Positions 3,247 through 64,000 of a stretch of 64,000 nucleotides of DNA are shown here, in pieces. Numbering within the stretch: position 1 is the first letter of the stretch; each line of letters opens with the position of its first letter. The notes under the pieces are model-generated. The model was not told where the DNA came from. It made no database searches and saw nothing but the letters and a program-made list of their open reading frames with translations. The stretch spans positions 62,735,558 to 62,799,557 of the forward strand of contig NC_134825.1 in NCBI RefSeq assembly GCF_004210375.1, written 5' to 3'. This DNA is from Tachypleus tridentatus (taxonomy: Eukaryota > Arthropoda > Merostomata > Xiphosura > Limulidae). The position numbers and the translations under genes are program-made.

Positions 3247-3275
3247 ATTGGTATTTGGAAAAGTGACTTATGTGT

Positions 3276-37296: not shown

Positions 37297-37538
37297 GGGG
37301 CCGGCATGGCCAGGTGGTTAAGACGTCCGACTCGTAATGGCGGGTTCGAATCCCCGTCACACCATACACGCTCGCCCTTTCAGCCGTGGGGGTGTTATAA
37401 TGTGACAGCCAATTTCAGTATTCATTGGTAAAAGAGTAGCCCAAGAGTTAGCGGTGACTACCTGGTCCTACACTGCTAAATTATTAACAGGTAGCGCAGA
37501 TAGTTCTCGTGTAGCTTTGCGCGAAATCCAAAAAATAA
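37297..37538 (+). mobile_element. SINE-A with small deletions
   Basis: GGCCGGCATGGCCAGGTGG and a CTCGTAA loop with a shortened arm, then GGTTCGAATCCCCGTCACAC, full CAGCCGTGGGGGTG block, a deletion within GGCGGTGACTACC, and tail TTTGCGCGAAATCC. Confidence 0.88.
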
Positions 37539-38049
37539 CTTAAAGTTTTATTTTAATTCACATTGGATCCAAGATTGTAACTAAAAATAACACATTTTAC
37601 CAGTTTCATGCTCCTATGGTTACAATAGGGAGGTTAACATTTCTTTTTCACTAAATTTTCAAAATACTTGTATTTAATACCCGTTTATGCATTTGTTATA
37701 CATATACAAGCATACTGATCTTTGATTTTTGGAACACAGTGTAGTTAGTTTCAACCTACTCACACATTGACTAATGTCATTTCTCTTCGTTTCAGAACTT
37801 TTTTACGGTAGATAAAGCTGTTCTCTAGCAATTTCCTTTGTGTACATGCTTAGAAATTCTAAAAGGCATCATCTTCTCTACTTGTATCAATGGTATGATT
37901 CAGTGACGTCAGTCACTAAATGTACCCTGTGAGAGTTAACCCTCTTTTTGTGAACTCTCACATTCCTGTATAGATGTCCTTTTGTATAAGATATTTATTT
38001 ATTGAGTTTTCGTGTGTACATTTTAAATGAATTGTCTTTATTTCTACTA

Positions 38050-38262
38050 CTGATTCCCAGATTCCCTAATTTAACAGTATAAGACTAGAGTGAAGGCAAC
38101 TAGTCATCACCACCCACCGCCAACTCTTTTACCACCAAAGTGTGAGATTGACCGTCACATTATAACGCCCTCACGGCTGAAAGGGCGAGCATGTTTGGTG
38201 CGGCAGGGATTCGAACCCGTGTCCATCAGATTACGAGTGGAACGCATTAACCCACCTGGCCA
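38050..38262 (-). mobile_element. SINE-A, tail-truncated; last large copy before the IWS1 region
   Basis: The minus strand has the head GGCCAGGTGGGTTAATGCG, loop CTCGTAA, CCGTGAGGGCG block and GGCGGTGGGTGGTGATGAC, ending at TAAATTAGGGAAT. Confidence 0.85.
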
Positions 38263-38675
38263 GTTTAAGAACAAGTTTATAATGTCCTTATTTGTGTGTG
38301 GTACATGTTTTCAAGTTTCTGATATTAAAGAACCTTGTTGTAAGAAAATCCATTATTTCAGGAAGTTAATATATAAATCACAAAGGATTGCATTTTCTGT
38401 TAACAGCTAAAATTCTCTATCTTGTTCAAATAAATATATGATCATGTGCATTTCTTCCAACAAATATATGGTTATTGAAGCTTGCTAAAAATATAACAAT
38501 AAACACAATATTTTTCTTACTGAATATGGCAGTGTTTAAAAATGATCAAAGAAGATAAAACAAAAACAAACAACTGGAAGGGGTATTAAACTATTTATTT
38601 AACATAAAGATGGAGGTTTGTGAAGTTTTAAATCACAAACATTTGCTGCGAGTGTTGAAGTATTTTCCATTTAGT

Positions 38676-38790
38676 TTGTGGTTTGTTTGTAGTTAAGCAC
38701 AAAGCAACATAGTAGGTTATCTGTGCTCTTTTTCACCACAGGAACTGAAACCCGGGCTACAGCGTTGTAAGTCTGCAAATTTGCTGTCAA
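38676..38790 (-). mobile_element. SINE-B
   Basis: The plus strand reads TTTGTAGTTAAGCACAAAGC, TATCTGTGCTC, GAACTGAAACCCGGGCTACA and GCGTTGTAAGTCTGCAAAT, the complement of SINE-B, with the first bases of the head missing. Confidence 0.85.
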
Positions 38791-39014
38791 GTTGAATATG
38801 GGCCTGACCAACACTGTTATTGGTTCCTTCTCTATATTTTGGAATGATTCATCTGTGGATATTTTTCTGCTGCTGGTTATTTTGAATGTTCATAAGCGAC
38901 TATATTAAGCAAACTTTTGTCTACATTAAATTGTTGATACAAAAACATCTGAAACTAAAATCGAAGCTGAACTGCATTTTAAAGAAATCATTCTGCATTT
39001 TATTACCAATATTG

Positions 39015-39480
39015 TATTTTTTCTTTTACATATTACTAATACACACTGCAAGATGGGAAGACCACGTGAAGAGATTTAGAGAGCTGTTCTAGCAAGTGAG
39101 GACAGCAGACTTCATCATTAGACCATCCAAGTGCTATACTGAATATTCTATGCTGGAATTTGTTGGACATAAAGTGTAAAACCAACATATACCCATAACC
39201 ATGGAAAACATTACCTGCATACAAGATACACCAGCCTGAACAATCAAGCAAGAAGTCAAATCCTTCATGAGGATAGTGGGATACTACAGGAAATTCATTC
39301 CATATTTTGCTGAAATTATGCACCTATCAATGATCTCACCAAGGAGAGCTTTTGCAGCAATGTGAAGTAGAAACAAACCCACCAGGTGGCATTTCAGAAA
39401 TTAAAGAACATGTTGGGAAATTCATTGAATTTCAGATTTCAAAAAGCTATTCATTATCCAGCCTGTTGCTGAATTTTAAT
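39015..39480 (+). pseudogene. Ty3/gypsy reverse-transcriptase relic
   Basis: Plus-strand frames give WEDHVKRFRELF, then IIRPSKCYTEYSMLEFVGHK, then QEVKSFMRIVGYYRKFIPYF and finally DFKKLFIIQ. These are the fingerprint blocks after the catalytic YxDD of a Ty3/gypsy reverse transcriptase, leading into RNase H. The YxDD itself is not recognisable (FYILLIHT in its place). Several stops and shifts interrupt it. No long terminal repeats were seen. Confidence 0.85.
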
Positions 39481-39489
39481 TAAAAACTT

Positions 39490-42400
39490 AAATACTGTTA
39501 AAAAGCCCAATGGCCCTTAAAAAAATAAAAACATTTGTAAGGTGGACAGTGTCACCATTGCTAATGTCCAGCATCAGGGATAAATTTGAGGACACAAGGT
39601 GTCTAAAATGGTGCCGTCGTTGAGAGTTGTAATGATGGCATGACAATAAAATGTGGATTATTGTGACTCGAGTGCACACAGACCACACATTAGTGCATCA
39701 GACCCAGATAAATGAAAGTGCCAAGTTAGAAAACCGTGCATAGTCTAGTCAGGACATTGTAAGATAGCAAATAAGTTTTGGGATAAATTTATAAAAAGTT
39801 GTAAAGTAATTGAGGAAATTCATTATCTATAAATTTTATTAGTTTTAAATCACAATTTCTATTAAATACTCTGATGTTGTATATGGCTGTACAGTGTTTT
39901 CCAATAGAGAATTTTCTACTAATGACAAATTTTCTGTTGTATTTTCAACAAACCAACACCCAATAGTAAGAAAAAAATAAAACCCTGTGTTGATAATATG
40001 TGTACAAACTCGGGTTTTTACACCTTTCAACCTTATGTGTAGTTTTTCAAAACTTAAATTTAAGTTTTCTTTATCCAAGAAAAAGTAATTTTTTCAAAAA
40101 ATGTTTTGATGAGAAAATTGTGATACTTCAATGTAGAATGTATTTTCACAAAAACCAGTGGATGACTATTTTATAAGTTTTTCATGATAAATATAATTAC
40201 ATATGCAATTGTAGTACAGTTACAGTTGAATTTAAAGATATTTCAAAGCATCAAAGTTTAAGGATCCAATAAAATAAATGACCTATATCTACTATTCAAT
40301 GTTGTTACTATTTCATCTATATTATTACTTAACTTACAATAACTCATCTGAGCACGTGTACAAGTGGACTAGTAATCTACTATTTCAAGGATTACATTCA
40401 CTCCCATGTTTTCATAAGCTCATTCAGATCTGGCACAAGTAATGTATGTATGCTGGTATTTTAGTGATAAAATTAATATTATTTCACCTAACTGCACAAA
40501 ACTGGCATACAAAAGAAAAAAAAAGATTTGCTTTGAGAACTGGTATAATTTCTTTACAAAGTGTCAGAAATTTTCCAGTGAAATGTTGTTTTCTGGAAAC
40601 AATAATATATTTTTCCATCATAAGGTTTCTGTTTTTATATTTACTGAACTCTATACATGCATCCAAGAAATGTTATTTTTTTCAACATTAAAACTACAAT
40701 ATTTCAGCATAATCTTGTTTAAATATTAACATGCAATTATTTTGTTTTTTAATTCTTTCAATGATGCACTAGTAGCTAAAACATGAATGGGTTATCTGTG
40801 CTTTGCTAAACACAAGTATTAAAACACAGTTTTTAAGAGTCTTACACACCACTGGGGAACAACTTGAAAGATAAACAGAAACAGCACTACAATTTCATAT
40901 TTGAGTATTACAGTTTCAGTGAAATAAACATTTACAGCTAATGGTAACATAAGTAAATAACAATGCCTTTTATCAATGAAAATTCACACAATGAAGGCAA
41001 ATATCTAATGAAACAGATTGAGGCAAATCTCTCTTCTTCAAACAGAAATTGTTAGCAGCTTGAGAATGAAATAAAAATCCAGGTGTGGACGTGCCATTCA
41101 ACAATAGTTTTTATTAATCAAAATACACATTACGTACCCTAGTTTTATGTAGATAGTTCTTGAGATTACATTTATTTATTAATGTCTTTGTCAAATACAT
41201 AATGCTTATGATTTTTGTTACTGATATCAATCGAAGTCTGTTATATGTACTTTTAAATTCCACGATAGCTTGTTTTCAGATCAAATGGTGTATGAATGTA
41301 TGAACCAACCTATTAAACTGTTATGAGACCCAGGCACATTGTTTACACACACCTATGTACAACTTGTTATATTGCACTGTGAAAAACAAAATACTAGATG
41401 AAATATTTTCAAACTCAAGAACTTATTTTTTAGCAGATTATGTATATTTTATAAACGGTGCATCTTATTTCCATATCCAATATTTGTATGAATTTTTAGG
41501 TTCCAAATTTCAAAAACAGTTAACTGTAGTATGTTTTTGTTAATACACAATTAACCTCTATTGGGGATTTTTATTACCGATTTCTGTTTTTTTTTTATAT
41601 TCTCTCAGAACTATCCTAAAAAAATTCATATTTTATAAACCTGTAAATTTTATCATTGTTTGATTTCAAAAAGCACTGTATGTATTCTCACTGCATTTGG
41701 AATCATTGGAATACAGTATTAATAAATATTTTCTGATACCAAAATAACGAACCAGTTATTCTTAAAATTGTAAATGACATTTCATTATATATATATATAT
41801 ATATATATAAAATAACGTTTGAACCAATTTTAAATTCATTTATATATTTCTTTTTACACAATGAAGCCAATATTTATGTTGATAAGGCCTAATACAAGAT
41901 TTGTCAGTGATATGAAACTTGATGCAGTTGACTATAAAATGATCTAACTAAGCCTATATTATTTTGTACTAAAACATCATAATCATAATTCAAATGAACT
42001 ACCAAATAACAAAACAAGTTTAAATTTTGCAATTCCTAAATCTATTTATGATAAAAGTAAATAAATACATAATGCATAAATTTCAACTCTCAAGATTTTT
42101 ATATATATAAAAAACATCTAAAAGTCAATTTTCTATAAGTATTTTACTTCAATAGCCAAGTTTGACCTCAAGGGAGAAAAAAATCCATCTGGGACATGAT
42201 AGATAAACCCAACTACAAGTTCTTGTGTCAAGTAGCAGGTGATTACGATGATGTTTATAAATAATTTTTTTGCAATAAAAGTACTTACTGATTACTCATA
42301 TTAGTGGTGTCTTACAAGTTTGGTCAAAGATAACCTAAGCCTTTTTGAAAATGTTGGGATACAGGTATACATTTACATATTTTAATAATATGTGATACAT

Positions 42401-43288
42401 GATATAGACATACCATGCTTTGCTGGAATAGTTTTGATATAAAACCCACTTGGAGTAAAAACATCTTCTAAAGATAACTTGGAAAAAAAAAGGAGAGAAA
42501 GAGCTGATTGTAAATGAGTTTTAATTTTCTGTAAAAAGCCATATACAATTACTTAAATATGATAAAAATATTCAAATCTTAAACATATAAATGCATTTCT
42601 TAAAATAATGTCCAATGTGTGACATTGTTCTCAACAATGATACAAAATTCTACAAAATGAAAATATGCTACAGTGATAATGCACACAACTAAAACTGTAG
42701 AGCAGTGTTATGTGCACTTGATTTCGATACTGTACTCTTGAAACAGTTCTTTACTCAGAAAAAAATTACAGGTGCTCATAAATGAAGAATGCTAACAAAA
42801 ACTCAATCTTGACAAGTAAAAAATAGTTTATTCTTGGTTTCCACATAATTTTTTACATTTAACATGCACAATTTTTAGCTGTACAAGTATACTTTAATAA
42901 CTGTCTGCAAGAGATATTCTAACAAAAAAATTGGGGAGATAGTTCTTATTGTTTGAAACATAAATTAGTCTATTGTCTTAAGTATATCCATTTATCTTTG
43001 TTTTTTGAAGAATGAAGTACATGATGGCTGTAAGTTTGTTTAGGCTAAATCTCAAGAATCTCACAAAAAAGAACACAGGGCCAAACAATAGTATGCTATG
43101 AAAGGAAACTGAACTACATTGTAAGGTTTGTCTTCTATTTCTTGTACTGAAGAAAAATATTCAACAAATAAGAACTTTGTCAAGAAGTCTTCTCTCCTCA
43201 TCTTCCAAAATTGCAAACTTCCTACAAATTTGTCAAATAGCCATCCTTCCTCAATTTCTACTAATACTAATTGTCCATTAGACTTTTA
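39490..43288. other. 3' flank of IWS1
   Basis: AT-rich, with scarce CpG compared with sequence left of 38 kb. It holds a SINE-B relic (40783-40858), an AT repeat (41785-41809) and no gene I can recognise. A minus-strand AATAAA at 42827-42832, about 460 bases after the IWS1 stop, is a candidate polyadenylation signal; another overlaps the stop codon itself. Confidence 0.5.
40783..40858 (-). mobile_element. SINE-B, diverged
   Basis: GGGTTATCTGTGCTTTGC, AGTATTAAAACACAG and AGTCTTACACACCACTGGGG match the complement of SINE-B with deletions. Confidence 0.6.
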
Positions 43289-43411
43289 TTAAAGAGCCAT
43301 TTTTCTACCCTCTATGCTAATGCTAATTGCTCTTTGCACTTTACTCAGTCTCTTCTTATCTTTAAACATTCTTAAATGTTTGTCTAACTTCGTTCTTGGT
43401 TTCTTTGTGTT
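43289..43411 (-). CDS. IWS1: IWS1, last coding exon
   Basis: After the acceptor TTTCCAG at 43412, 40 codons end at TAA (43289-43291). The peptide contains KPRTKLDKHLRMFKDKKR and RAISISIEGRKMAL, which corresponds to the conserved C-terminus of IWS1 (basic helix, then an ISIEG..M..L ending). The frame continues in phase 0 from the preceding exon. An AATAAA overlaps the stop codon but a more distal signal is likelier. Confidence 0.93.
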   Translation of the reverse strand, partial: NTKKPRTKLDKHLRMFKDKKRLSKVQRAISISIEGRKMAL

Positions 43412-45602
43412 CTGGAAATGTAAAATAAATGAAAATTATGCTTTTGGGAACTGGTATTTACATTAAATTAAAAACTATAATATCAAATTATCCTACAACT
43501 ATACAATGCATAGATGTATTGAGAGGAGATATTATTCATTTGACCTGTTTCTCCAACACATGTATTACATTAGCTAGTTAGAGAACTTTATTCAAAAATT
43601 AGTTACCATTTTGACTTGACTTTACTAATATTTTAGCTTCATCTCTTTAGGTCTATCTTTCACAATGTAAAAGTTAACTATATTCTGTTCTTACACTAAA
43701 TAATATAAATATAATCCCTATCACACTTAATCTTTACTGTTAAATTACACAGTATTTAACTGACTATGTAATATCATGGCATTCCAAAAAATATTCCACT
43801 ACTACTTCCTGAAACCTTTTAAAGGATCCAGTGAAATGAATAGAAAATTTATTTTTATAAACTAAGCTATGACTGATGTGGTGTTCCCCTACTTTTTTGA
43901 TATTAAAGAAATGCTACAATAAACTAGAATTCAAGATCCTTGTATACTAGTGAGCTTTTCAAAATTAAAGTAAGCTTACTGATTGACAAATAATTACATG
44001 AAATAATATTCAGGTTTTCAAATTACTGGATGAATTTAGTAGCGCTTTAAAATTAAGTTATAAAAGGGCTTAAAAGAATAGCTACAAATATTAAGAGTGA
44101 CACATCTAGTTTACCACTAATAGAATGAATCAAGAGAGAAAGTAACACTCAAGAATGTAGACAGGTTATATAAAATAATGAAGGGTAATTCCAAATTATG
44201 GTTGTATATAGGTAATAATGAACTATGTCTAAAAATGAACAGTGGCTAAATTTAAGAAATCAAAAGAATGCCACAATACCATTGTTTTAAACTGTTTAAA
44301 ATTTCATTTTATTACTAATTAAAATCAGGATTAGATTCCTAGGTGATAAATGTGGAAGAAACATTTTGTTAACAATATTCACTGTGTTCGAGAAACAGTA
44401 TTACTTTACAATTATGAAACATATTTGAATTATTACTTGAAATCCTTCTGTTTACCAATTATATTAACAATCTAAAATTTCAAACTTCATTAAATTCCAT
44501 TATCCACTTTGTCAAATGTACCAAATAGTGGAATGATAAAAACTCAATGATGCTTTCATTTTTTTTACCTTAGAAAACAGATTTAAATATGGGTTAACAT
44601 AAAAAAGTACACATTTATTAATGATAGAGATGTTTTCTTAAGGGCTTCTTCCTTCAAAAGTGGAAGAAACAAGTGTCAAACAGAAGTAAATGTGTATGGA
44701 CACAAAAACTTAGAATTACCAAAATGTACATTTATATTTGTTATAACACATTAGTATTAGGCCTATTATGTTTGTAAACACTGCATTCTTAATCTCTCAG
44801 AGATTTTCAAAATTTAGAAGAGTGTAGAACAACAGTATTCTCATGACATTATATTTCTCATATCTAAATGTATTTATTAAAATATTTCATAAACAATTTC
44901 AAACTAAATAGCTAAATTCAGAATTTATTTTAAAATTTTCATAGTTTAAAATAGAAAGTAGTGAATATTTCCAGTGGTCAGTGAGATAATATTTTATGAT
45001 CAGCATATTGCTTAGTTGTGTTAATGTGTATGTACACTTTTCAGACAGGTCTAAAAACACAACTTACAAATATCATGGTGGCACACAACTCTTGCATCAT
45101 ACTGTATTTAAAATTATCTACACTAAATTTTATCTGTAAAGTTAAAATGTCCTTGTTTTTAGATATAATAAACACTTAGAAGTTTTAACACAAAAAAATT
45201 CTATAAAATAACAGCTGACTAACCATATTATTTTCAGAGAACTAAAGAATAATGAGCTGTTTCATTTAAGTTTTTTAATACAAGTGATTCTAACACCAAG
45301 TGCCAAGACAGGTTTAGTTTTTGCTTCCTTTTCTCAAATACTCATTGTGAAATAGTCAAACCATTATTTTCACTGCTGGAAAAACTTTCATTACATAAAA
45401 TGTTTAATTTGCTATGGCTTGAGACAGGCAGAATGTAAACGTAGCATTGATAAATGACTACACAGAGCTTATCAAGACAGAGGAGGAAAAATTAATAATG
45501 GAAAAAAATAGTAGTTTTCAAAAAGAAATAAATACAATATTTATAGCAACACTCAATGATAGTTATTAATTATGTAAAAAAACAAAACAAAACTGTACTT
45601 AC

Positions 45603-45714
45603 TCTACTTATTTCTGTTTCAACATTCCATTTTGGTCTCACTACATAGTCTTTGTTAGAGGGCATTGGTACTCTAGCTCTAGAAATCCATCCCTTCTCTC
45701 CTGGTCGTAGGGAC
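45603..45714 (-). CDS. IWS1: IWS1 exon, C-terminal conserved segment
   Basis: Acceptor TTACTAG at 45715; donor AGA|GTAAGT at 45602. The peptide [18 protein letters not shown] and [18 protein letters not shown] matches the most conserved stretch of IWS1 just before its C-terminal tail. One base completes the preceding codon, then 37 whole codons follow. Confidence 0.95.
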
Positions 45715-45903
45715 CTAGTAACAGTAACTGGGTGGTTATTTATACATTCAACATTATTTCAGAAATTTTAGTCTACATGCAGTATCTCTTTTTGGTGCAA
45801 AATGGAAAATAAACAGATATTAATTGACAATCATACAGAATAAACTTGACAATTATAGTCAAATGGGTGTTTGAAATAAATCAGACTATATGCATGTTTG
45901 TGT

Positions 45904-45998
45904 GTGTTTTTCTTATAGCAAAGCCATATCGGGCTATCTGCTGAGCCCACCATGGGGAATCAAACCCCTGGTTTTAGCATTGTAAATCTGGAGACTTA
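45904..45998 (-). mobile_element. SINE-B head with variant tail, 14-bp TSD
   Basis: The minus strand gives a SINE-B head (CTCCAGATTTACAATGCTAA, GGGGTTTGATTCCCCATGG) joined to AGCAGATAGCCCGATATGGC and TTTGCTATAAGAAAAACAC. ATGCATGTTTGTGT is repeated exactly at 45890-45903 and 45999-46012. It sits in an IWS1 intron. Confidence 0.88.
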
Positions 45999-46673
45999 AT
46001 GCATGTTTGTGTTGAAACATTATCTTTAACTGTTTCTGTTAAAATAGCTTTTATACACTTAATCTTTAATAATACAGTTGTCCTACATTGACATACTTAG
46101 CAGAATATGAAATAATTGTTTTCTATTAGTAGCACACACACGAAAAAAGTCCAGATACAGTATCAGAAAGTTTTCAGTTGCCATACCAAATATCAAGGTA
46201 ATCAAGCCAGCCAGCTGATGGATGCTGAAACACACATAATGGATCATCTTTATAGTAAAGTGGTGTGAAAGGAAAGTTGAATGTTTATGTTTTAAAAGAA
46301 AAACAATTTTCATTTGGGGTTGAAAGAGATAGCTAACTGAAGAAAAAAGTAAAAGCTTATGGAATTTAAAAACATTAAAAATAAGTAAAATAATTTCTGA
46401 CTTCATGAACAAATGGAGTAAATTCTAATTCAAAATCTATTTTCTCACTATGCGTATTTACATAACTGACATGTGTCTACATAACTCAAATATGAATTAT
46501 ATTGTACATTATATGTAAAATATGGAAAACAATTTTCACCTAGAGGGCTAAATTTACAAAACATCAAGAAATTAACAGATTTCTGATAATACTATTAACA
46601 CAAAACTGTTACTAACACTACGTACCATAATGGAACATACTTACAACTTTAACATGAAACTATAGATACTTAC

Positions 46674-46736
46674 TTTTCTTCTCCACTGAGAGCTCTGTCA
46701 ATATCTTTTCCTTGTAACTGATCTCCAGTCTCAAGC
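46674..46736 (-). CDS. IWS1: IWS1 exon (63 bp)
   Basis: Acceptor TTCAAG at 46737; donor AAA|GTAAGT at 46673. It encodes LETGDQLQGKDIDRALSGEE, matching the short variable linker and the LxGEEK motif that precede the LRPG segment. The incoming codon is split after two bases (AG|G, Arg) and the outgoing after two (AA|G, Lys). Confidence 0.92.
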
Positions 46737-47623
46737 CTTGAACAAGTAATATTTGTGAAGGTAAATGAAGGAATCAGGTATAAGATAAATTATATTATTC
46801 AAGGTAATACTTAAAATGAATGAATGAATGAATAATGCACAGTATGAATCACCTTGATTACATAACTTTGATTCCGAAACTTTCCATTGCCAATTATTAG
46901 TTAAATGTTGTGTTTGGAAGATGCTAGTTTTTACTTCTGTAAACATTAAAAATAGTTCTTAAAAACATGCAATGGTATAAAATTTCATGTGGTATAAAAC
47001 ACATCTAGATTAATGAACTCTAAGTGAAACAAAAATGATAAAATGAAAGTGCCACTTTTTGCAAGAGTACACCAAGAGTAAATTACATTTATCTGATGAA
47101 GGATACTAAGTTTATGGTTATTTATGTAACTGCCCAAATCATATCAACTGCAAAACTCTGTGTTGAAAATTAAGAAACTCGTTTACAAAACAATTCTTTA
47201 GTCTTTTTTAAATAGTACTTTTTTAGGTCTTCAAGGAATAATTATTTTGATACAGACAGTAATTACTAAGAATCTATCAATAAGAATATAAAGAAACAAA
47301 ACAAACACTTGACAAACTTTTAGATAAACAAAATTGTACAGTTCTTTTAATAGAAATAAAATGCATCACAATCTTGATTCTAACTTATTTTGGTAAATGA
47401 TCTTGTTTTTTTTTTGTTTTTTTAATAGACCACAGTGTTCAACTTTTAAGACAGACTTTCCACAGGTTATTAAAATAATTGTTTTCCAAAATACTTTCCA
47501 AACTAATGAAGACACTAACTCAAACCACACCAGTGTCTAATTATGTGAAAGAACTAATGAATTTTCACCACCTGTTCTCAGAAGCATAGGTAAAACCTGA
47601 GTTATATGGCAGATGAATGCATA

Positions 47624-47648
47624 CACACACACACACACACACACACAC
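47624..47648. repeat. AC dinucleotide repeat
   Basis: About twelve AC units in an IWS1 intron. Confidence 0.95.
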
Positions 47649-48876
47649 TTTGAATTAATAACTTTACAAGAAAATATACAGCTACGTAATATATCAATTT
47701 TTTTAACTCTGATTTTCATCCTTCATGTATTATGAAGATTTCATGATAATGACTCATGCCAAAAAGTTTTACAGTAACAAGTAAAGAAAATCATACATTA
47801 TAGTTAAAAGTAGCAAATTAATTTATAGAATACTCCATTAAAATATTTAAGGAACTATGATGAGTAATCAACACAATATTATACAACTATCTTTCAGTTA
47901 TAAGATCTGTTTGAGACCCTTCTGTCAGTCAGATCTTTTTCACCTATTAGTACAACGAGATTTATCTAATTACTGTGGAATGATACTTGTTTGTTTTTAT
48001 GACACCATTTTTACTCAAAGTCTAGAAAGCTTGTTTAAACAAAATATTTTAAATTTATTAATTCCAATTTCAGAATAAAACCATTTTTCTTCTCTATTCT
48101 TCTTCAAGACTCTTAAAAATGTAAATAATACAGCTACACTGTCTAGACTAAAGGATTATGTGACATATACATTTCTTGTATTAAATTTGCCTTATCCAAT
48201 TGCTTTTACCTGAAATGTACCAAAGGAATAAACTTGATAAGCTATCCTGATACGTAGATAAGAGATACTTCAATTAGCTTTAATATTACTACACTATACT
48301 TCCATTTAAGAACTTCGATTATACAGGCATGTGATGGTTTTACTGTCTTGAAATTTTTACATTTTACAGAAATTCCTGTACTTTTGGATAAGTGAATTAT
48401 TTTAATTGAAATCAGGCCACATTTTGTCAGGCTAAAATACTGATAACTACTGACTATAGATTTTTTTTGAACAATTGTAATGAGAAATACACTGTTGGTA
48501 TACAAATGGTTGACAGGCCACGTGATATACCATTTCTGGATAATATTTGTCTGTGCATGCATTTGATATTATTTTATTCTTTTCAAGAGGTTACATAAAT
48601 GACCCAAATGTATTTTGTTATATTTGTGATAAATTTGATCTAAGTAAGAATTATTTTCTCTCAATTTGTGATAGAAAAAAAATTAATATTATTTTCAAAA
48701 TCTGCAAGCTGAATAATAAAAATCCATCACTAAAACTCAAACAACTTTTATGAAATTTACATTCTCAGGTCTGTTATTTGCTGAGTTAATACAATTAAAG
48801 CTCACTAAACATTTTATACTATGTATAATGTGAAAGTAGTTAAGTAGGATGTGATAAAAACTTAACACTCATTAAC

Positions 48877-49103
48877 CTCATTTTCCTTTTCTTTGGCATA
48901 TGTTCGAAATCTCTTTGTTCTCTCTCTTCTTTAGACATAGAACGAAAATTGGCATTGACATTGAAGATAGGTCTTGCCCATTCACTAATCAAACGACCTG
49001 CTCTTTCTCTGTTTTCTTTAGTTTCTTTTGGATGTTTGTAAACAAACATGACAGACCGACCTATTCCACTAAATTTCAAAGAGGATGGATCAATAGGTGG
49101 AAA
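48877..49103 (-). CDS. IWS1: IWS1 exon, end of TFIIS N-terminal-like domain
   Basis: Acceptor TTTCCAG at 49104; donor GAG|GTTAAT at 48876. The 75 codons include [35 protein letters not shown] and [17 protein letters not shown]. In IWS1 this closes the helical TND domain that binds short linear motifs in elongation factors and SPT6. [11 protein letters not shown] takes the place of the linker region in the human protein. The frame is open throughout. Confidence 0.95.
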
Positions 49104-50249
49104 CTGGAAAATGAAGAAAAGAGAAAGTACAATTACAAAATAAAGTATTCTTTTATTTTCTGTATTAAACTTTATTTTTATGAACTAAAAATACCACTAC
49201 AGTGGGACAAAATGTATTATAATTAATCTCACACTGTAAATAACACCTCATTTTGCCCTTTTAAACCTTCATTCTGTAACAGATTTAGTTATAAATATAT
49301 TTGTAAGAAAAAGAAATTCTTTCCATGTATGACAGTGACCAGCTCTCAACTCTGGAAACTGTGTTTATGCAATTATGTCACTTCAAAAGCTTTAATACAT
49401 GGAACACTGATAACTACACATAAAGCAAAGACTGTAACAAGCATAAATGGGAATTTTGAATACAAGGAGAATTTTATATGCACAATTGCTAAATAGTCAA
49501 GTCAGAGAACCTACAGCTTTATGTATAGCCATACCTTTATTTAGAACTAGTACAGTCACAGCTGAAAGTGCAAAACATAAAAGTCAGTATTTTATATTAA
49601 TCTAGACAAACTGAGGGTAATTTTTTGGTTTACAATAACATTTCAGGACATTTGTGTATTCTTTCCTGAAACATCATTCTAACATGATATTCAAGGCAAG
49701 TTGCCTGAAACTAAACGAGAGTAAGACCATTCCAGATTAAGCCCTTTTGACAATCATGTCTTTTAAACCATCTGAAAAATTTTTTATGGATAAACATTAA
49801 TCAAGGTAGACCTGTAAAGAGGGACTTGCAGGTGCCACAAACATTACCATAACATAATATCATGACAAGATGTCTGACAGATTTATTTTTCCTTTGAAGC
49901 AGGTTTTAATTATAAAATTCAGCATTCCAATAGGATACTTACTTCCTCTCAAAGATTAATTGTTTCCTTTCAGTGCTGCCTTCTATATGCAAATTTTTCT
50001 TTACATGCACTATAATTCTTCTGCTCACCCTATTGGAATTGCAAGGTTCCAGTATGTCTCTCAAGCAAATCATCATGTGTCACATCCTACCCAAGAGAAG
50101 CATGAAACACTCATGTGACACATGAGACCCTCCCTCTGCACTCATCAACCAAACTATCACTTTGAAGTATGGTAGCTGTTAGCACTTGAGAAATTGAGAA
50201 AGGTGGAAAGTGTGAGTGGAAGGAAGTATATATCAGAAACACATTTTTA

Positions 50250-53200: not shown

Positions 53201-54000
53201 GTTTGAGGGGAAAGAAATTGATTACCAGGAGCCAATCCCTGGTTTTCTTGGGGATAACAAAAAGGCTGGAATAAAACCCCTGGAAGGATGTGAAGCAGGT
53301 TTGATTGTCTGCTGCAAGACCAATTCTCAAACTGCTTCTGACAGATGCTAGCTGATTGTTGTGGAATGGATACCAGCAATAAAGAAACTCTCACCAGACC
53401 CAAACCCACTTGTACTTACCCCAAGTAGAAGAAACTGGTAAGAGCTTGAAAGGTGAATGATGAGAAATTGGAGTTGAAGGCATTGGCTTAGACAAACAGA
53501 CTACAATAATTGTAAGGATGGATTATTGTTCATCTGAGGTTCGACAGCTTTGAGGACCATATCAAAAACATAATGCTTCAGAAATGGAGCCATATGTAAA
53601 TCTCTGAGATATGTTAAAAGTAAATGGACTTGAACCAATATAGCATCATAACCTGTAAGTCCTAACAACCAAGAAATCACATATGTAATGCAAGAGCCAA
53701 AGATGACATGGAGGCTAAAGTGGAAGAGAGAAGAGCAAGAGTATCTGCACAAAAAGCCCCAGGATTTCTGTGTAAAGCCTTAGACAGAAGGTGTATGGAA
53801 GAAAGATACTGCAAGAGGTTGGTAAGGATAAGACATAGGCAAGAATATTTAGCATGGGTAAGACTGACACTTAATTTAGAAGTTGTTCCCCAAATCAATA
53901 ACAAGCAACCTAACAACTACTGATATAAAAATAGATAGTTTGAATGATGGTAGGAAAGAGCAAAGTCATCAGTAGTCTTTGAAGAGGGCATGTCATGCTA
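50250..54000 (-). mobile_element. DIRS-like retrotransposon relic
   Basis: Minus-strand fragments occur in the order expected for DIRS reverse transcriptase and RNase H. At 53149-53280 GLAPGNQFLSPQTF and LKFSMEVFFTL correspond to a WRPVIDLSPLN..KF.ME block. At about 52900-52990 HLHVLGLQVHHYLDDWLLLA contains the active-site YLDDW (52947-52961), typical of DIRS. At 52190-52310 INHHSRDVCFQMLDLLHWTQ then AHHIQVIAYHVP correspond to the RNase H ..HQGGT..WAQ..HIPG region. Frames shift often. The sequence between about 50.25 and 52 kb and above 53.4 kb has similar composition and is presumed to be the rest of the element; no tyrosine recombinase or terminal repeats could be shown. It lies in an IWS1 intron in the gene's orientation. 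Confidence 0.82.
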
Positions 54001-56787
54001 ATCCCCTCACTTACTTGCAAGTTTCATATTTTATAAAATCTAAATAAATCTTAGTTACTGAGCTTAATAAATTGGAGTGGAATTCTATGGTATCAGTATA
54101 GTTATTTATAATTTTTGGTCATTCAACTGTGTACATAGATAAAAAATTTAAAAAAAGATTTGTTTCATATCCTCCACATGAAAAATTTTAAAAGGCATAG
54201 TAACCTATGTCCAGCAACAATTGAGTTCAAAGGTCATAGCAAGAAGAGATAATTATTTGCTTTACTTCTTGATTTGTTGTTCTATATTTTAAGAAAAATA
54301 AGTTTAATAATTTGCTTCTAAGCAGTAATAATCTATATACATACTGTTTAACAACTGAAATATGACTGTATATTATAAAACACTAGTCAACTAAAATACA
54401 GCCAAGACAGAGAACACTAATGATCAGTTTTATATCACTGGATAGGTGACCTAAGTGCATGTGCATCTATTCCAATGCAAGTTATGTTATGTTAGGTAGG
54501 CATGACTGGAAGGTCAATATAATAAAAAATAATAAATATATGTGTTCATATATAGTGTTATGAGACTTACTCTACTTAGACTAAACATTTGTATTTTCGT
54601 GTTATAGTACGTAGTGATCCTAGCATGAAAAAAGCATAACTTATATTTATTTTCTAATTATTTTATGATGGCTACAAGGTTAAGTGACAGACCCCATATA
54701 GAGTACAGAAAATAACATAATATAAAGTCTTGCTGAACACAAAATTTTAAAATGTATTTGAGAGTTTTAAGACATAGTTTTTTATTGTAACATGAAATTA
54801 CTTTGTACTCAGATTAGTAAAGAAACACTATTTTCACAAACAAATCTTGTAATCTTTATTAAAAGTTAACCAAATTTTGTAAAGATATTCGTGCTGTATC
54901 AAAAGTTATAATACAAATACTTAATGTGTGCAAGTGTGTAGATAAACTTGTGTATATTATACTGAGTCTGTTGTAAAAGAGTTCAGTCAAAAATAATCAC
55001 TTTATCAAGAAAATAAAGTCAAACAAGAAGCATTAAGCACACAAATGAGCACATTCAAATTTATATACTACCAAATGAAAAGCAATAGTTTGGTAGAAGA
55101 GTGTAGAGAGAGTCAAAAGCATGACATGAGCATGTCCTATTGTTTAAGATATGACACATGATAACTTACATGAGAAATATACTGGAATCCTGCAATTCCA
55201 ACAGAGGGGTGTGGAAGACTTGTGGTAGGCATAAAGAAAAGGTTCACATATAAAGGGTAGCAGTTAATGGGAAGGGCTAATCTTGTGAAATGAGGTAAGT
55301 GAAATGTCGAATTTTAGTTGAATGCAACAATTAAAAATATTTTTCATGATCAAAACCTTTTTTTACGTGTAACTTGATTAATGTTGATCCATAACAACTT
55401 CTTACATGTTTAAAAGACATAACTGGCAAGAGGGATTAACTAACAGTTTTACTTTCAAGACACCTTACCTTGCATATTATGTCAGGGTGACATTTTAGGA
55501 AGGATCTCACAAGTGTCCTGATATGTTATCATAACACAATATTCAAAAAACGATATCCTACAGTAAAAACCTACCAGATTATGTCCTTTTGTTAACAAAA
55601 GAAATATCATATACAATTTTTGTCTTTAGATGACCTAAGTAGGTATTAATGATTAATACATTTGATCTGTATTTTATTGTTAGGCCATTTGCAAATTATT
55701 TTAAACATTTTGAGTTAGTTGTTTTATCTCAGTGGATGTAAAAATTCAAATGCAAGATACTTGAGTGACTACATTAAATTCCTACCCATGTTACTTATTA
55801 AAACAGAGAACCATTTTTGGCTAACATACAAGCATGTTACAAATCACACAGTTTTTGCAATATCAGTAACCTTTCTAGTAATATCATTTCAGAAAAAACT
55901 GACAAAAGTTATAGGTAATTCTCAGACAGTTACAAATGTTAATGTTTGTAAAATAATGGGTTTAGTCCCTTTTATGTATGTGTTCAGGTTAAAGAGGAAT
56001 GAAAATGCATTGATTTATTTCTGCTAATAGGTAAAAACAAATATGGAATTTCATACAATTTTTTGTGTTGAAACTTTAACTTGAAAATAATGAAAAAATT
56101 CGCAGGAAAACAAACCTTCAAGGGGTGTAAGGAGTATACTTCCCTGACAGGTTTAAACTTTTGCTTTGACTTAACAGTATCATCTTGCTTTAATAAAATA
56201 CAAAAGATGAGTATAGTTACTTCATAGAGCAGGAATACTATTACATTGTGATTTTTTTTTCCAAACCTGAAATTCAAAGCCTTGATCTTGTATGTTTCAT
56301 CTTAATTTTTAAGTTTGAACTTGAAGCGAAAAATAGTGATTGCACACATGATGGACTGGTGAACACAACTTGAATATAATTTACAATACCTTTTGGATAG
56401 CAAACATATTGTACGTAACAAATTAAGAAGACTCCAGACTGCCATACAAGGTTCTAACTTGGATTATTTAAAACCTTGGCATTGAAAAATAATGTGAATG
56501 ATGATGAAAAAAAATCCACTGATAGCTATACATTTTCCCTGTGATAAGTGGTGGCAAATTGCCAGGTACCAGCTTTAATGACATTACTGAAACTAGGTGA
56601 AACATTTAACAATTGTGACTTCAAAATCTCAAAATTAGCCTAATACTAAAGAATGATTTATATAAGCATACAAACAGAAACATATAGAACTGTCTTCAAG
56701 ACAAAAGGACATTAAGTGATGTTTGTATTATATGTGCATACTTCATATCAAATTTAGCAAGTCCAAAAGCTTTCAAGTGAAACATAC
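54001..56787. other. Intron sequence without recognisable feature
   Basis: AT-rich, poor in CpG. A 102-codon plus-strand ORF at 55719-56027 begins at TTG and has no recognisable content. Nothing else is supported. Confidence 0.5.
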
Positions 56788-57000
56788 CTCTGAAAGCAGC
56801 TTGAGGAAGTTGTCCCTAATTTGAAGATGAGGCATACTCTTATCTGGAAGTGGTGCTAGCCACTCGGCCATAGCATTCAGGACACCTTGGTCCAGGAAAG
56901 AGGATTTTAAATCTTGTTTCTTCAACTGGGAAACCACTACTGGAAGAAGCTTCAGCTTTTTAGTAGCAGCCATATGGTTCTTGTTTAGATTCCTGTCTTC
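56788..57000 (-). CDS. IWS1: IWS1 exon, core of TFIIS N-terminal-like domain
   Basis: Acceptor CATTTAG at 57001; donor GAG|GTATGT at 56787. Exactly 71 codons begin EDRNLNKNHMAATKKLKLLP, then VVSQLKKQDLKSSFLDQGV and MAEWLAPLPDKSMPHLQIR. The last is the IKEWLSPLPD..LP.L.IR signature of IWS1. Confidence 0.96.
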
Positions 57001-57982
57001 CTAAATGTATAAAAACAAAATATCCCACTTTTAATGTGTTTCTCATGTTAAACTAATAAATAATTTAATAATAAAACTTAATGAAGCAAAATTACAATAG
57101 TCTACTTCTAAACGTCCTATTTCTTAAGATTTAAAACAATTTCTTTATGTCACAAAGAAAAACAACTATCATTTTTATCCCTTTAATAGCGTTAAAAGAA
57201 TGTATATTATAGCAATGAGTTCAGAATAAGTTGCAAAGCAAAGAAATTAATTGAAACATCAGTAATGGACATAGGATAAATGTATAATAAAACCACAACA
57301 GAAAACTTGCTTTAAAAAAAAAGAAAGAAAAAGAGGGTACATTCAAAAGTTTCTCTTGATTGAAAATATTTTCTGTTATACATGTCTACATATGAATTAT
57401 TATACATTTATTTTAACCCACAGAAGTAAACCCTTTTAAGGATGAAGTCTAGATATCATTGCCTTAACCAGAGTAATTTGATGAAGCTTTTAAGTTAAAC
57501 AGGTTAACAAAATAGTCAACTTTTGGGAGAATAACGTGTATGCAAGATCTTAATTTCAAAATGAAACCTTTACGTACCATAAAACACAGTAAATAAAGTA
57601 ACATAAATTTTATAAACAAATTAAGCAGAAAACACAAAACATCATTTTGAAAAAAAACTTCAAAAAATACAATGCTTTTTTATATATATCATTAAACTAC
57701 AGACAAAATTATAAATCATGTATAGTTTTTGCTCTAAGAAATGTATGTCAGTAAAATAATAAAAATTACAGAGCTGGTCATCCTAATCTTGAGCTTCTCA
57801 TTTTTAAGAAGTTTATTTCCTGAAAGACTGAAAATTTTGCAACTGTGTTACTCATTGGCTGATACTAGAAAATTACTATCTTTAGAACAAATTAGTTACA
57901 TAAATGAAAAGTTGATGTTTATTGAATTATTAAAAACAACAGTCATTTAACTTCAATAAAATTTAGAAGATTCACTACATAC

Positions 57983-58127
57983 TTCAGCAGCTGTCTTCAT
58001 GTGATTAATAAGTTCTGCTATTAGGTCATCATTATCATTGATGATGTCGGTATCCTTCCTCTTTCGTCTACGTTGATTCTCTTTTTTCTTCTGCATCATT
58101 AATTCAAAGTCAGATACAAAATCTTCC
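57983..58127 (-). CDS. IWS1: IWS1 exon, start of structured domain
   Basis: Acceptor ATATCTAG at 58128; donor GAA|GTATGT at 57982. It encodes EDFVSDFELMMQKKKE, a basic run RRRKRK and DIINDNDDLIAELINHMKTA, matching the beginning of the conserved C-terminal half of IWS1. One base closes the previous codon. Confidence 0.96.
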
Positions 58128-59072
58128 CTAGATATGAACAAAACTACACTATCAAACAAGTATGAATTTGCATACTTATAACAGCAAAGATCAGAGAAAA
58201 TACTACCATTAAGTAAACCTAAATGTCAATCCACATTTTGTTTTGAAATCTGCTTGACTAAAATATTCTATGAGACATTAATCAAAGTCTAAGACCACAG
58301 TAAATCAGGAGTTAGTTAAAAAGGCAAAAACCTGTATATGAAAGAGGGTTGATTGAGAGAATTAAATCAAACAATAAGGAATTCTTTTGTTATGTGATTG
58401 GTAAGCAAAATGTTAGGATGGGGATTGAGCCTCTTAAAAATGATAGTGAGAAGGTAATCTCAGAAGATTATGAGATGGTAAGTTTATTAAATTATATACT
58501 CTCTTCAGATTTTATGAAAAGTGTTATGCCTCAACAAGAGTGCTTAATGTATGAGGAAAATATTGGTGTAAAAGTTCTGAAGTTGTAAGAGAAAAGTTGG
58601 AAAACCTAAAAATTGGTAAATTATATGCACCAGATAACTTTTATCCTAAAATTTTAAAGGAACTTAAAGACTTTAATTGTGAACTGCTAGCTAATATTTT
58701 TAATAGGTCACTGTGTAGAGGAAAAGTATTATAAGATTGAAACTTGGCTACTGGTAGTCCAATATTTAAAAAAGGTAATAAACATTGTCCAGAAAATTAT
58801 AGGCCATTTAGTTTTACAATAGTAGTTGAAAAGTGTTGATACAGTGTTAAAAAGCCATCATGGTTTCATTAAAAGAAATACTTGTTTAATAAATCTAACA
58901 TTCTTTGAGGATATTACTGTAAGAATTGATGAAGGAAATAATGTGGATTTGGTTTACCTTGATTTTCAGAAAGTAACTAATAAGATGCCTCACATATGAC
59001 TTGTTACAAGTATTAAATCTGTGGGTATGGGTAAAATGTTATTCAGTTGGATAGAAAATTGACTGGAGATCA

Positions 59073-59198
59073 ATTGTTGTTTTGAATTAAGCACAAAGCT
59101 ACGCAATGGGCTATCTGTGCTCTGCCCACCATGGGTATCAAAACCTGGATTGTAGCGTTGTAAGTCCGCAGACATACTGCTGAGCCACTGGGGGGCGA
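59073..59198 (-). mobile_element. SINE-B inserted in the LINE, 12-bp TSD
   Basis: The plus strand reads ATTGTTGTTTTGAATTAAGC, CACCATGGGTATCAAAACC, GCGTTGTAAGTCCGCAGAC and GAGCCACTGGGGGGC, a complete reverse SINE-B. It is bounded by GACTGGAGATCA (59061-59072) and GACTGAAGATCA (59199-59210). It interrupts the LINE's coding frame, so it is younger than the LINE. Confidence 0.93.
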
Positions 59199-59849
59199 CT
59201 GAAGATCAGAAGAGGAGAGAAGAAATAAATGGAACTAGATCTGATTGGATCACAGTTACAAGTGGTGTGCCTCAAGGCTCTGTGTGCTGGGTCCTTTGCT
59301 GTTTGTGATTTAAATTAATGATCTTGACTGTAGAATAATTAATAAAATTTTAGTTTGCATATGAAATTAAGACTTTTTCTAAGTATGCAATATCTTTGAT
59401 ACAGTTGGCAACTTTAAGAGATTTAGATCATTTGATGCATTGGGCTATTACATAGCAGATAATGTTTAACTGTCCAAAATGTAATGTGATGCATGTAGGT
59501 TTTCACAATTCAAATGGGAATACATTAATTACTTTAGTTGAAAAAAAAGATCTTAGTGTTGAGATTGAAAAATCACTTAATACACCTAAACAGTGTATTG
59601 TAACAAGCAACAGAACTAATAGGGTTTTGGTTATCATTTTCAGAAATACTGAACACAATACAAGGGATATTATTGTTTCACTATAAGACTTCATTTTGAG
59701 TACTGTGCACAGTGTTGAGCTTCCCTCCTCAGAAGACACTGAATTGTTGGAGAAGGTTCAGAGAAGAGGCACTAAAATGATACCTGGGATGGTGGGATTG
59801 TCTTATGAGAAGAGTTTGGTTAGGTTTGATTTCATGCAAAGATACACAG

Positions 59850-59932
59850 GAACTTTCTGCACTAGCCATCCCTAATATAACAATGAAAGACTAGAGCAAA
59901 AGCAGTCAGTTATCATCATCCACCATCAATAA
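59850..59932 (-). mobile_element. Short SINE-A relic
   Basis: CTGCACTAGCCATCCCTAAT, AACAATGAAAGACTAGAGC and CAGTTATCATCATCCACCAT match the complement of the SINE-A 3' body. It is the only SINE-A similarity right of 38.3 kb. Confidence 0.55.
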
Positions 59933-61125
59933 GAAGAGATTAAAATCTCTAAACTTGTTTTCTTTGGAGAGTAGAGTAGAAGAGTCAGAGAGGATTTCAT
60001 TGAGATGTTTAAGATTATTAAAGGCATTGATAATATAGATTCATCAAAACAATAGAACTAGGGGGCATAAATTCAAATTTTGGCAATGTAGGAGTCAACT
60101 GCAGTTTAGACAGTATTACTTTTCAAACAAGGCTGTTGGCTTTTGAAATGTGCTGCCTTGAAAGTTGGTGGAGGTAGCAACTTTAACCAAGTTCATGAAA
60201 TCTCACTTTAAGATATTACAAATTTATAAAATATCTATATAAAAAATATAAAAAAATTAGGAAGACCTCTGATGAGATAAATGATGTCATTTAATGTTCA
60301 TTAATCATTCTAGAACTTGATTTAAAGTTTACAGTTAAGAACAGAGGAAGAGATTATTACTTTTATAAACTATAGGAATGGATTTCATTTACACACAATA
60401 TTTACCTTAAAAATATATTTGTTTGAGCATTTTACTATCAGAAAATCATTAAATATTATGAAAAGGATGCTGGCAATTACAGTTTTAATTAGAATTCTAA
60501 ACATTACCTTTAATTATTTTACACCTGTTAGACAATTTTCTCATGAAAGTCTGAGTACCACCTGTCTCAACACAGAAAACCAGTTTTATCAAACCCAAGC
60601 AACATCATAAAACAAAACAATAAAATTTTAGATTCAGACTACATGTGAGTTAAGAAGTTCAAATACTATTGTACCAACTTCTTTCCATGACCAATACATT
60701 TGAAAATTATTTTGAAGAGACAAGAAGTGAATTAGAGACATGTTCAAGTCATTAACGAATAAGCAAAAGAGAAAAAGAAAGAATTATTCAGGAAATTTAG
60801 TAACTTAACCAATAGTTTTGATCAACAGCAGCAATTAATTATAGTACATCCTGATGCCATTAACTGTAATTTTGTTTTAAGATCTAGATAATGCTAGAAC
60901 ATTGTCCCGAGGTAAAAGTATATACTGTTCACAAATTTGCTGTCATTATAACCAATAAACTTCTTGGCAAAAACATTCCGATAATAACTTTCAGTACTTA
61001 CTTAATGACACTGGTCAAGCAGAAAAATAACTAGTGGCTCTACTAAACTTGATGTTTATCTAAGACATCTCAGAAATGTTTGCAACTGTTTATGTTCCCT
61101 AAATTATAAAACAACTAATCCAGAC

Positions 61126-61294
61126 CTCAAGTGTTTTCTGTTTACATCATCTTCATCACTGTCTGAACTATCATGTACACTTTTCTCTTTTTTTTTTTGT
61201 ACTTCTTCAAGGACTAGTTTTTCATCATCATTTTTCTCAGACTTGTCTCTCTGGTCATCTTTTTCTTCCCTTTCTGATTCACTACCAGAAGCAA
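61126..61294 (-). CDS. IWS1: IWS1 exon, acidic Ser/Asp-rich segment
   Basis: Acceptor TTCCTCAG at 61295; donor TTGAG|GTCTGG at 61125, a weaker site chosen because it keeps phase. Residues include ASGSESEREEKDDQRDK, EEVQKKKEKS and DSSDSDEDDVNRKHL, resembling the acidic stretch just before the FxSDFE motif of IWS1. An alternative donor at GAT|GTAAAC inside the exon would break the frame. The 11-base A run is in frame as sequenced. Confidence 0.85.
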
Positions 61295-62089
61295 CTGAGG
61301 AACAACAAATAATTCAACCTGAATTATGTATGAAATTGCTGAAATATTGTAATTAATGATAAATTTTAAAATCTTCACAGCTGTGTTTGGTAGTTGTTCA
61401 GTATAATATCTAAAAACTATCAGTAGATTCACTCCTTTCAATTTACTGGGGCATTGGCTTTAGCCCAAGGTGTAATCATTTTAAAATACACACTATTAAC
61501 ACAAGTGAAACAAAAAAAAAGTATAATTTTAATATAATAATTTTACAGTAACTGTATTTATAAATAAAATATATTTTGCAATAGTACTTCTAGCAGTGAG
61601 GTGATAAAGTAATGTAAAACTATTCATGTATTGTAAATGTGTGCTCATTTTGTGGGAATTAGCTTAAAATATACTATATACAACTGAAACAAGTAACGTA
61701 AAAACATTAGAAAGTTCATACAAGGTTTTATTTTTTATTGTTTGGATATTTTCAACCAAGAGTAACTACCTAAGAAGAAAGTGTCTTGAAGCTCTTATAT
61801 TGTCACCTGAAATAAAATTAAAACATCTAACTTCTAACTACAAGTTAAAAAAATTTGTTTAAAAAACAATTCTAAGCTCACAAATATGTATACATATATG
61901 TTTATAATGGCATTCAAGCAAATGCAACTTGTCTAAGAGTAAGTCTGTTTGCTTTTGGAATGAGAAAAACAAAATGTAGCTTTAAATACTGTCAAAAGGG
62001 AAGTTACTTAAATAATATTTTGTATAGTAAACCTCTAGATTTATTAATTGTAAAAACATAATTAAAAAAATTGGTATTTCCTTTAATGT

Positions 62090-62205
62090 TTGTTCATTGT
62101 TAAGCACTAAGATACATGATCAGTGCAGTGCTAGGAAGGGGTATTGAACCCTGATTTTCAGCATTAAAGCCTACAAACATAAACCTGTACCATGGGTTGG
62201 TGGGT
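62090..62205 (-). mobile_element. SINE-B, strongly diverged
   Basis: TTGTTAAGCACTAAGATACA, GGGGTATTGAACCCTGATTT and AGCATTAAAGCCTACAAAC align with the complement of SINE-B. CpG sites have been lost. Confidence 0.6.
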
Positions 62206-62594
62206 AGCTATGCCACGAACTAATAATTTCAGTGTATGATGTGCAACCACTGAACAATGTTACCATGAATGCTATCCAAACAAACTTGTGGAGTGCCTTT
62301 AAAAACAGCATAGTTTGTTTTAATAAGAGTAAAATATATATTATCACAACATGTTTTAAGAGGCAGTTATGTTTTCAATATGGCATTCCTTGAATTTGAT
62401 TTTAGAAAAAATACAAAGTTGTTTCCCAAGGCCAGTGTTTAAATTTATGTATTTGTTACTTCATTCACACACAGTAGTTCAGAGATGGTGTTTTGAACTA
62501 CACATGCTTAATGAAAAGGTACCTTATAAATAGTTTAAAATGATATTCTCCCAACTATCACATGTGGATGAAGTTTACTACACTCTATAAATAC

Positions 62595-62655
62595 CTTTCT
62601 TCTTTTTATTTTCTTTCTTTTCCTTTGCTGCTTGGACATCTTCTTCACCAAATCC
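62595..62655 (-). CDS. IWS1: IWS1 exon (61 bp), lysine-rich
   Basis: Acceptor TTATTACAG at 62656; donor AAAG|GTATTT at 62594. It encodes GFGEEDVQAAKEKKENKKKK, matching the GFNQEDLEEEK-type linker of IWS1. Twenty codons plus one base, which joins the two bases of the next exon as Val. Confidence 0.88.
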
Positions 62656-62946
62656 CTGTAATAAAATAGCAAAGCAGATGATATATGTTTGTTCATTTTG
62701 TTAGGTTCAATATTTCTAAGTTAGTTTTTGCATGATAATTATAGATTAATCCTTCTTTCTTTAAACTGAGAACACAGATTCATAAATCCAAAATTAGACC
62801 ATTTTCTTTGCAGGTTTAATGAAGTTTTAGTGTCAATATTATATCTTTATTTGCAAAGTCATTCACAAAAAATCAACACAAATTTTTAAAATGTTACAAC
62901 AATATAAATTTCTAGTATTTATAAAACATCATCATTGTTAACTTAC

Positions 62947-63010
62947 TTCAAATTCTTCATCTTCATCACTTTCACCAAAAATATCAGCAATCAGTTCTCC
63001 CACATTTGAC
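62947..63010 (-). CDS. IWS1: IWS1 exon, first one inside the window
   Basis: Acceptor TTTTTAG at 63011; donor GAA|GTAAGT at 62946. It encodes SNVGELIADIFGESDEDEEF, with the LIADIFGES motif diagnostic of IWS1 and related elongation factors (a TND-interacting-type motif followed by acids). One base completes a codon from an exon further right, outside the window, so the long acidic N-terminal region and the start codon are not here. Confidence 0.93.
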
Positions 63011-63058
63011 CTAAAAATACATTTTTGCCATTCAGTTACAATTATCTTTACTGAAAGT

Positions 63059-63780
63059 TTAACATAAATGGTTACAAATACCATCCACTTTGCCAGTGTA
63101 ATTATCAGGGCCTACAAAGTGCATTATTTCTGGTGTTATGCATTCCAAACCACCAGAATCATGATGAGAAAGTAAGCAAAACCAATGGAGACAAAACTTC
63201 TCCATTTGAAGAAGTTCAAAAGGCAACAGCCCAGGCTGGGATGACAAGATCATGTATACTGTGCTCAACTAAAGGAACAGAACTCATCCACTATGGAAGA
63301 ACCTGTGTTCAACCAAGGACCTAGGATGGGACCACTTCACATTTGAAATTATGAAGAGATAGTGGATCTCTTTTCATGAACAATATACAAAACCAACATT
63401 GATCAATGAGAACATACAGCTTTGTGTCAAATCTTAACCAGAAGTATGAGTAGGTTCATGCAGAGGCTGGGAAAAAAGTCTAGAGACCCAAATATGAAGG
63501 TCTCCAAATTTGCCCTCTTCTCCAAAAGTAGAGGTGCACACTCAAACACTCTGGAGGAAAACCCTCTGTTCCAGCAAGTGCAAACTATGGGTGATAAGGA
63601 CTCCCAAGGTCTACTAGAGTCTGGGGGGTAATATGCATTGACGAATCCTGAGGAACAGTCCTCTGAAAAATGTTCAATTGGTGAACCAAGTTCCATACCT
63701 TTTTCAAAGCAAACCAACTCCAATGTATTTAATTCAATGATCAGCATGGATGGTCCATAATAATATAGTAATACCACATG
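63059..63780 (-). other. Possible DIRS-like gag fragment in IWS1 intron
   Basis: A minus-strand frame contains FCLHWFCLLSHHDSGG and later HFVGPDNYTGKVDGICNHLC, a spaced Cys/His arrangement like the zinc-binding motifs in DIRS gag proteins. The neighbouring 116-codon minus-strand frame (63427-63777) is unusually long for this composition but is unrecognised. The stretch is richer in GC than the adjoining intron. It begins about 50 bases from the splice acceptor of the 62947-63010 exon. Identity as gag is inference. Confidence 0.35.
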
Positions 63781-64000
63781 GCAAGTGCCTAAATGGTGTT
63801 ATGGAACATCTCATTTCTAAAGAGCCTGTTGCAGCTAGTAGTAAGAATAATCAAATCATTTACTTGTGTGTAATTGGAATGACAGAAGCACACATGTCTG
63901 GGCATCACTTGCAACAAAGTGGGATCCACTGAAAGCAATATGTAAGGGATCCTAGAATATAAAGTCAAGATTATGACAAAATTACTTCTCCTCCTTATAA

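Follow-up and report, generated by a model that had tools for sequence, protein, structure and literature searches.

Long-standing DNA methylation over an active invertebrate gene usually leaves a loss of CpG dinucleotides as its scar, and trimethylation of histone H3 at lysine 36 (H3K36me3) is thought to guide methylation of gene bodies. Here we describe a CpG-depleted domain over the IWS1 gene in a stretch of 64,000 nucleotides of the xiphosuran Tachypleus tridentatus (NC_134825.1, positions 62,735,558 to 62,799,557), called the window below. The closest described systems are other arthropods. In the spider Stegodyphus dumicola methylation is about as high in introns as in exons, and transposable elements follow the status of their gene (PMC6409797). 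The same paper describes intergenic transposable elements as hypomethylated and splits genes into a low and a high group by the observed/expected ratio (o/e) of CpG, a measure that there also covers Limulus. The methylated genes of arthropods are enriched in housekeeping genes (PMC7343188). In the Colorado potato beetle methylation declines slowly past the end of transcription, and H3K36me3 extends over 3 kb beyond it (PMC12576374). Mouse IWS1 has itself been reported to recruit SETD2 for H3K36me3 (PMC6405902). An annelid methylome adds nothing decisive (PMC11292947).

We found that CpG o/e falls from 0.84 (947 CpG) at positions 1 to 38,250 to 0.12 (77 CpG) at 38,251 to 64,000, and likelihood segmentation of the unmasked window placed a single cut at 38,250. 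One-kilobase bins agree with this. From 39,001 rightward 24 of 25 bins have an o/e of 0.03 to 0.30, the remaining bin (41,001 to 42,000) having 0.47; between 1 and 38,000 the o/e is at least 0.49 in 37 of 38 bins, with 11,001 to 12,000 as the exception (0.33). The bin 38,001 to 39,000 is transitional (0.54). We then masked the 21 main copies of two families of short interspersed nuclear elements (SINEs), SINE A and SINE B, leaving weaker SINE matches and other repeat families of the left side in place. The log-likelihood gain of the step was 211 after masking, against a maximum of 19 among 1,000 shuffles in 200-base blocks, and the o/e was still 0.82 on the left (756 CpG in 34.5 kb) and 0.12 on the right. 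At a slightly lower threshold the masked segmentation gave extra cuts at 5,670 and 49,060, with an o/e of 0.18 at 38,011 to 49,060 and 0.08 beyond. The step near 38 kb had been proposed in an initial annotation of the window, and the o/e profile bears it out. The same annotation described depletion throughout the domain; exons, introns and repeats are indeed depleted alike, but the depletion is uneven. The right end of the domain is outside the window, and the domain continues past 64,000.

The collapse is confined to CpG. Among the 16 dinucleotides CpG has a right/left ratio of 0.14, and the other 15 lie at 0.91 to 1.22 (CA 1.12, TG 1.14). GpC is nearly constant, at 0.94 on the right and 1.01 on the left. 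TpG and CpA, already noted as frequent in the domain, together have an o/e of 1.29 there versus 1.13 on the left. Compared with left-side rates, the domain is missing about 440 CpG and has gained 383 TpG and CpA.

The gene in the domain is IWS1, a conserved gene that encodes a general transcription factor; it lies on the minus strand, with its stop codon ending at 43,289. We recognized eight exons, with AG acceptor and GT donor borders picked by eye and a TAA at the end of the last; the reading phase is continuous through all eight in order, and further intervening exons are possible. Five joined exons (58,127 to 43,289) match PDB entries named "Protein IWS1 homolog" with an E value of 2.6e-89, and comparison with Pfam and PDB shows a TFIIS N-terminal-like domain followed by C-terminal IWS1 motifs. 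Aligned by eye, the first of these exons falls near residue 475 of the 819 in the PDB chain, so the 5' half of IWS1 and its promoter should sit beyond 64,000. The domain overlaps IWS1 as the initial annotation held; it continues past the right edge of the window, and the promoter lies outside. The CpG deficit and the TpG/CpA gain span the IWS1 body, exons and introns, plus 5 kb past the stop. Pooled approximate coding exons hold 10 CpG versus 41 expected (o/e 0.24), and introns are lower (for example 0.05 at 49,060 to 54,000), as codon constraint would give. IWS1 has 1 NCG codon to 25 NCA codons; for the neighbouring Spot14/MID1IP1 gene the figures are 10 to 23, counted over the whole open reading frame from stop to stop. 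Spot14 lies outside the domain and, as had been noticed, keeps its CpGs (37 CpG, o/e 0.96, at 30,600 to 31,500).

Our data suggest that the domain is very probably the mutational footprint of long-term germline CpG methylation over a constitutively expressed IWS1. Methylated CpG would deaminate to TpG or CpA in exons, in introns and in any repeat landing in the domain, and the flanking DNA, including Spot14, would stay unmethylated and retain its CpGs. The mark would track elongating RNA polymerase II (Pol II) and its chromatin marks, H3K36me3 and perhaps methylation of histone H3 at lysine 79 (H3K79), as far as the termination zone, or through a long 3' untranslated region (UTR), which would explain why the footprint extends about 5 kb beyond the stop codon. 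The locus resembles chelicerate gene-body methylation in that exons, introns and intragenic transposable elements share one status (PMC6409797). Unlike in Stegodyphus, where methylation was measured by bisulfite (PMC6409797), here it is read from the loss of CpG; germline expression and a connection with transcription marks are likewise inferred. Gene-body methylation, which the initial annotation had invoked, best accounts for a deficit confined to CpG and nearly matched by the gain of TpG/CpA, and fits spider and insect methylomes; the methylation itself is inferred.

The domain extends 5.0 kb downstream of the IWS1 stop codon, close to the distance first estimated. CpG o/e in this overhang (0.20) resembles that of the last 6 kb of IWS1 (0.17). 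The initial annotation regarded the overhang as reaching further than the transcript should. Its length stands, but it is unsurprising given the slow downstream decay of methylation and H3K36me3 in the beetle (PMC12576374). The spread into the 3' flank is like that of the beetle; unlike the beetle's current mark, it covers about 5 kb and is read as an evolutionary scar (PMC12576374). Taken together, the published systems lead one to expect the domain as well as its overhang.

A different account of the overhang makes it a second transcribed unit or a long IWS1 3' UTR, so that the methylated domain would be bounded exactly by the transcript. Twenty minus-strand AATAAA or ATTAAA words at 36.0 to 43.3 kb, a raw count in AT-rich DNA, allow distal poly(A) sites. 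Against this, at 38,263 to 43,288 no Pfam family reached its cut-off in the 10 of 35 open reading frames of at least 45 codons that were searched or in two further pieces, the best match being DUF2053 (E 0.008, 16.8 bits versus a cut-off of 27.3), and Rfam gave no match at gathering score in the window. Fragments at 39093-39362 on the plus strand resemble what we take to be a Ty3/gypsy reverse-transcriptase relic; Pfam did not confirm it. We regard this account as possible but rather unlikely. It is also possible, and we hold it still more tentatively, that the methylated domain is not transcript-bounded and that its edge, 5 to 6 kb past the stop, shows where the germline Pol II termination zone stops or where a chromatin border lies close to the SINE-rich, CpG-normal neighbour.

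The left edge was first described as sharp. The step is real, but its knife-sharpness is partly accidental because a CpG-rich SINE A copy ends at 38,262, where the step falls. With SINEs masked, the main cut moved to 38,010, with support (an interval of 3 log-likelihood units) from 37,040 to 38,400. CpG o/e of the host DNA falls from 0.64 (36,500 to 37,297) through 0.40 (37,539 to 38,062) to 0.29 (38,263 to 39,000, a stretch that still contains a SINE B copy); the difference from the left-side rate is only p 0.04 for the second stretch and p 0.005 for the third. Both SINE A copies at the edge retain CpGs like the outside copies, and so since their insertion the methylation mark probably ended right of 38,262. 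The true end of the domain is somewhere in about 37 to 39 kb.

SINE A is about 270 bases long and begins with what we take, by resemblance, to be a tRNA-like head; ARAGORN called no tRNA gene in it, nor anywhere in the window. Its sequence resembles an element of horseshoe crab genomes; a SINE core had no match among viral contigs, nor did SINE words in the papers searched. Of its profile matches with E <1e-10, 15 lie at 38,262 or to its left and one lies to the right (59,814 to 59,929), and the left-side copies have a CpG o/e of 0.92. These figures would suit a contrast of age, with young CpG-rich transposon DNA on the left and old DNA on the right. We rejected this explanation, which is improbable, because the left side keeps its CpG level when the main SINE copies are masked, and because Spot14 is CpG-normal as well.

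SINE copies can also serve as clocks. The copies at 59,074 and 59,808 retain 2 of 12 family CpG sites versus 161 of 241 in 18 outside copies (Fisher p 0.0007), a test that leans on few sites because the sites were defined across all copies together. The outside set comprises copies at or left of the edge; the copy at 38,681 belongs to neither group, and weaker profile matches were unscored. All 10 CpG losses in the inside copies are TG or CA. The copy at 59,808 is 27% diverged and has no age match. Two other repeats in the domain had been labelled a DIRS relic and a long interspersed nuclear element (LINE) relic, and neither label was upheld by Pfam: one of eight pieces of the former gave a weak RVT_1 match below the cut-off (E 0.017) and seven gave none, and none of five pieces of the latter matched a reverse transcriptase.

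A regional base composition or mutation bias independent of methylation would agree with the slightly lower G+C of the domain (31% versus 34% on the left) and with the difference in AG/CT. We rejected it as very improbable, since GpC is nearly constant and the collapse is limited to CpG and almost balanced by the gain of TpG and CpA. That the window joins two genomes, by chimera or contamination, is suggested by a composition that shifts where a repeat ends, but can practically be dismissed since each SINE family is present left and right of the step, and the copies at 59,074 and 3,276 are 92% identical.

Several points weigh against long-term methylation of IWS1 as the source of the footprint. 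Among the 18 outside SINE copies 65 of 80 CpG losses are also TG or CA, so that inside and outside copies cannot be told apart by the type of change. The age-matched comparison is suggestive: the copy at 59,074 (3.5% diverged) keeps 2 of 6 sites versus 33 of 46 in four left copies at most 7.5% diverged (Fisher p 0.08). The left side has a TpG/CpA excess (545) that exceeds its own CpG deficit (147), which makes TpG/CpA an impure signal of CpG decay, and AG/CT (+276) and CC/GG (+201) are likewise elevated in the domain. Codon usage separates the two genes weakly, with arginine CGN codons making up 6 of 28 in IWS1 versus 8 of 17 in Spot14 (p 0.10). The T-A skew of the coding strand is 0.078 +/- 0.008 in the gene body versus 0.028 +/- 0.017 in the overhang, which leaves transcription there unsupported, though relics confound the comparison. 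Exon methylation exceeds intron methylation in most arthropods surveyed (PMC7343188); unlike most of that survey, introns are here the more CpG-depleted, which codon selection can explain. The Colorado potato beetle has lost DNMT3 (PMC12576374), and in Nematostella remethylation is better predicted by di- and trimethylation of H3K79 (H3K79me2/3) than by H3K36me3, both being gene-body marks (PMC13345969). Thus the H3K36me3 step of the proposed mechanism is not assured.

Table 1. Features of the window. Positions count from its first nucleotide; a dot means that no strand applies.
Feature	Positions	Strand	Remarks
CpG-depleted domain	38251..64000	.	o/e 0.12, 77 CpG; right end not reached
Left-edge support interval after SINE masking	37040..38400	.	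cut 38010
SINE A copy in edge zone	37298..37538	+	13/19 family CpG sites kept
SINE A copy ending at, and creating, the apparent sharp edge	38063..38262	-	10/13 family CpG sites kept
3' overhang downstream of IWS1 stop	38263..43288	.	22 CpG, 107 expected, o/e 0.20
Old SINE B copy just inside domain	38681..38777	-	2/4 family CpG sites kept
Young SINE B copy inside domain	59074..59199	-	2/6 CpG sites kept; the other 4 now TG or CA
Old partial SINE A copy inside domain	59808..59929	-	0/6 CpG sites kept, all TG or CA
IWS1 exon, LIADIFGES motif, first seen	62947..63010	-	outside PDB query; by eye, LIADIFGE near residue 475 in the IWS1 chain of 819 residues
IWS1 exon, probable	62595..62655	-	borders by eye, phase, composition only
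IWS1 acidic exon, probable	61126..61294	-	borders by eye, phase, composition only
IWS1 exon	57983..58127	-	in PDB-matching query
IWS1 exon, first part of TFIIS N-terminal-like domain	56788..57000	-	PDB match; alone without Pfam match
IWS1 exon, second part of TFIIS N-terminal-like domain	48877..49103	-	PF08711 E 1.1e-10; PDB match
IWS1 exon	45603..45714	-	in PDB-matching query
IWS1 last coding exon, TAA	43289..43411	-	PDB match; AATAAA overlaps stop codon
Spot14/MID1IP1 gene, outside domain, CpG-normal	30728..31462 (open reading frame, stop to stop)	-	PF07084 E 1.7e-25

Inside the domain there is a CpG bump at 41 to 42 kb (8 CpG, o/e 0.47, uncorrected p 0.005), which may reflect a more recent insertion, an element that was formerly unmethylated, or chance. 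On the left side the kilobase 11,001 to 12,000 is CpG-poor within otherwise CpG-normal DNA. SINE A matches with E <1e-15 lie left of the edge in 14 of 15 cases (binomial p 0.007, assuming independent insertions), as if the gene or its methylated DNA were avoided by SINE A insertions or cleared of them. In alignments and cross-matches the 3' tails of SINE A and SINE B are similar over about 40 bases and have a CAAA-rich end, for example at 2964-3247 and 3276-3404, as if one LINE had mobilised both.

The domain is best read as a clear and ordinary example of the known invertebrate gene-body methylation scar with a 3' overhang, and as a probable example of intragenic repeats decaying together with their host gene. 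Sequence alone can thus indicate which genes are methylated in an invertebrate germline and how far the mark reaches past the gene. If the methylated domain is not bounded by the transcript, CpG scars could serve, in species without data, as an evolutionary map of where transcription terminates.

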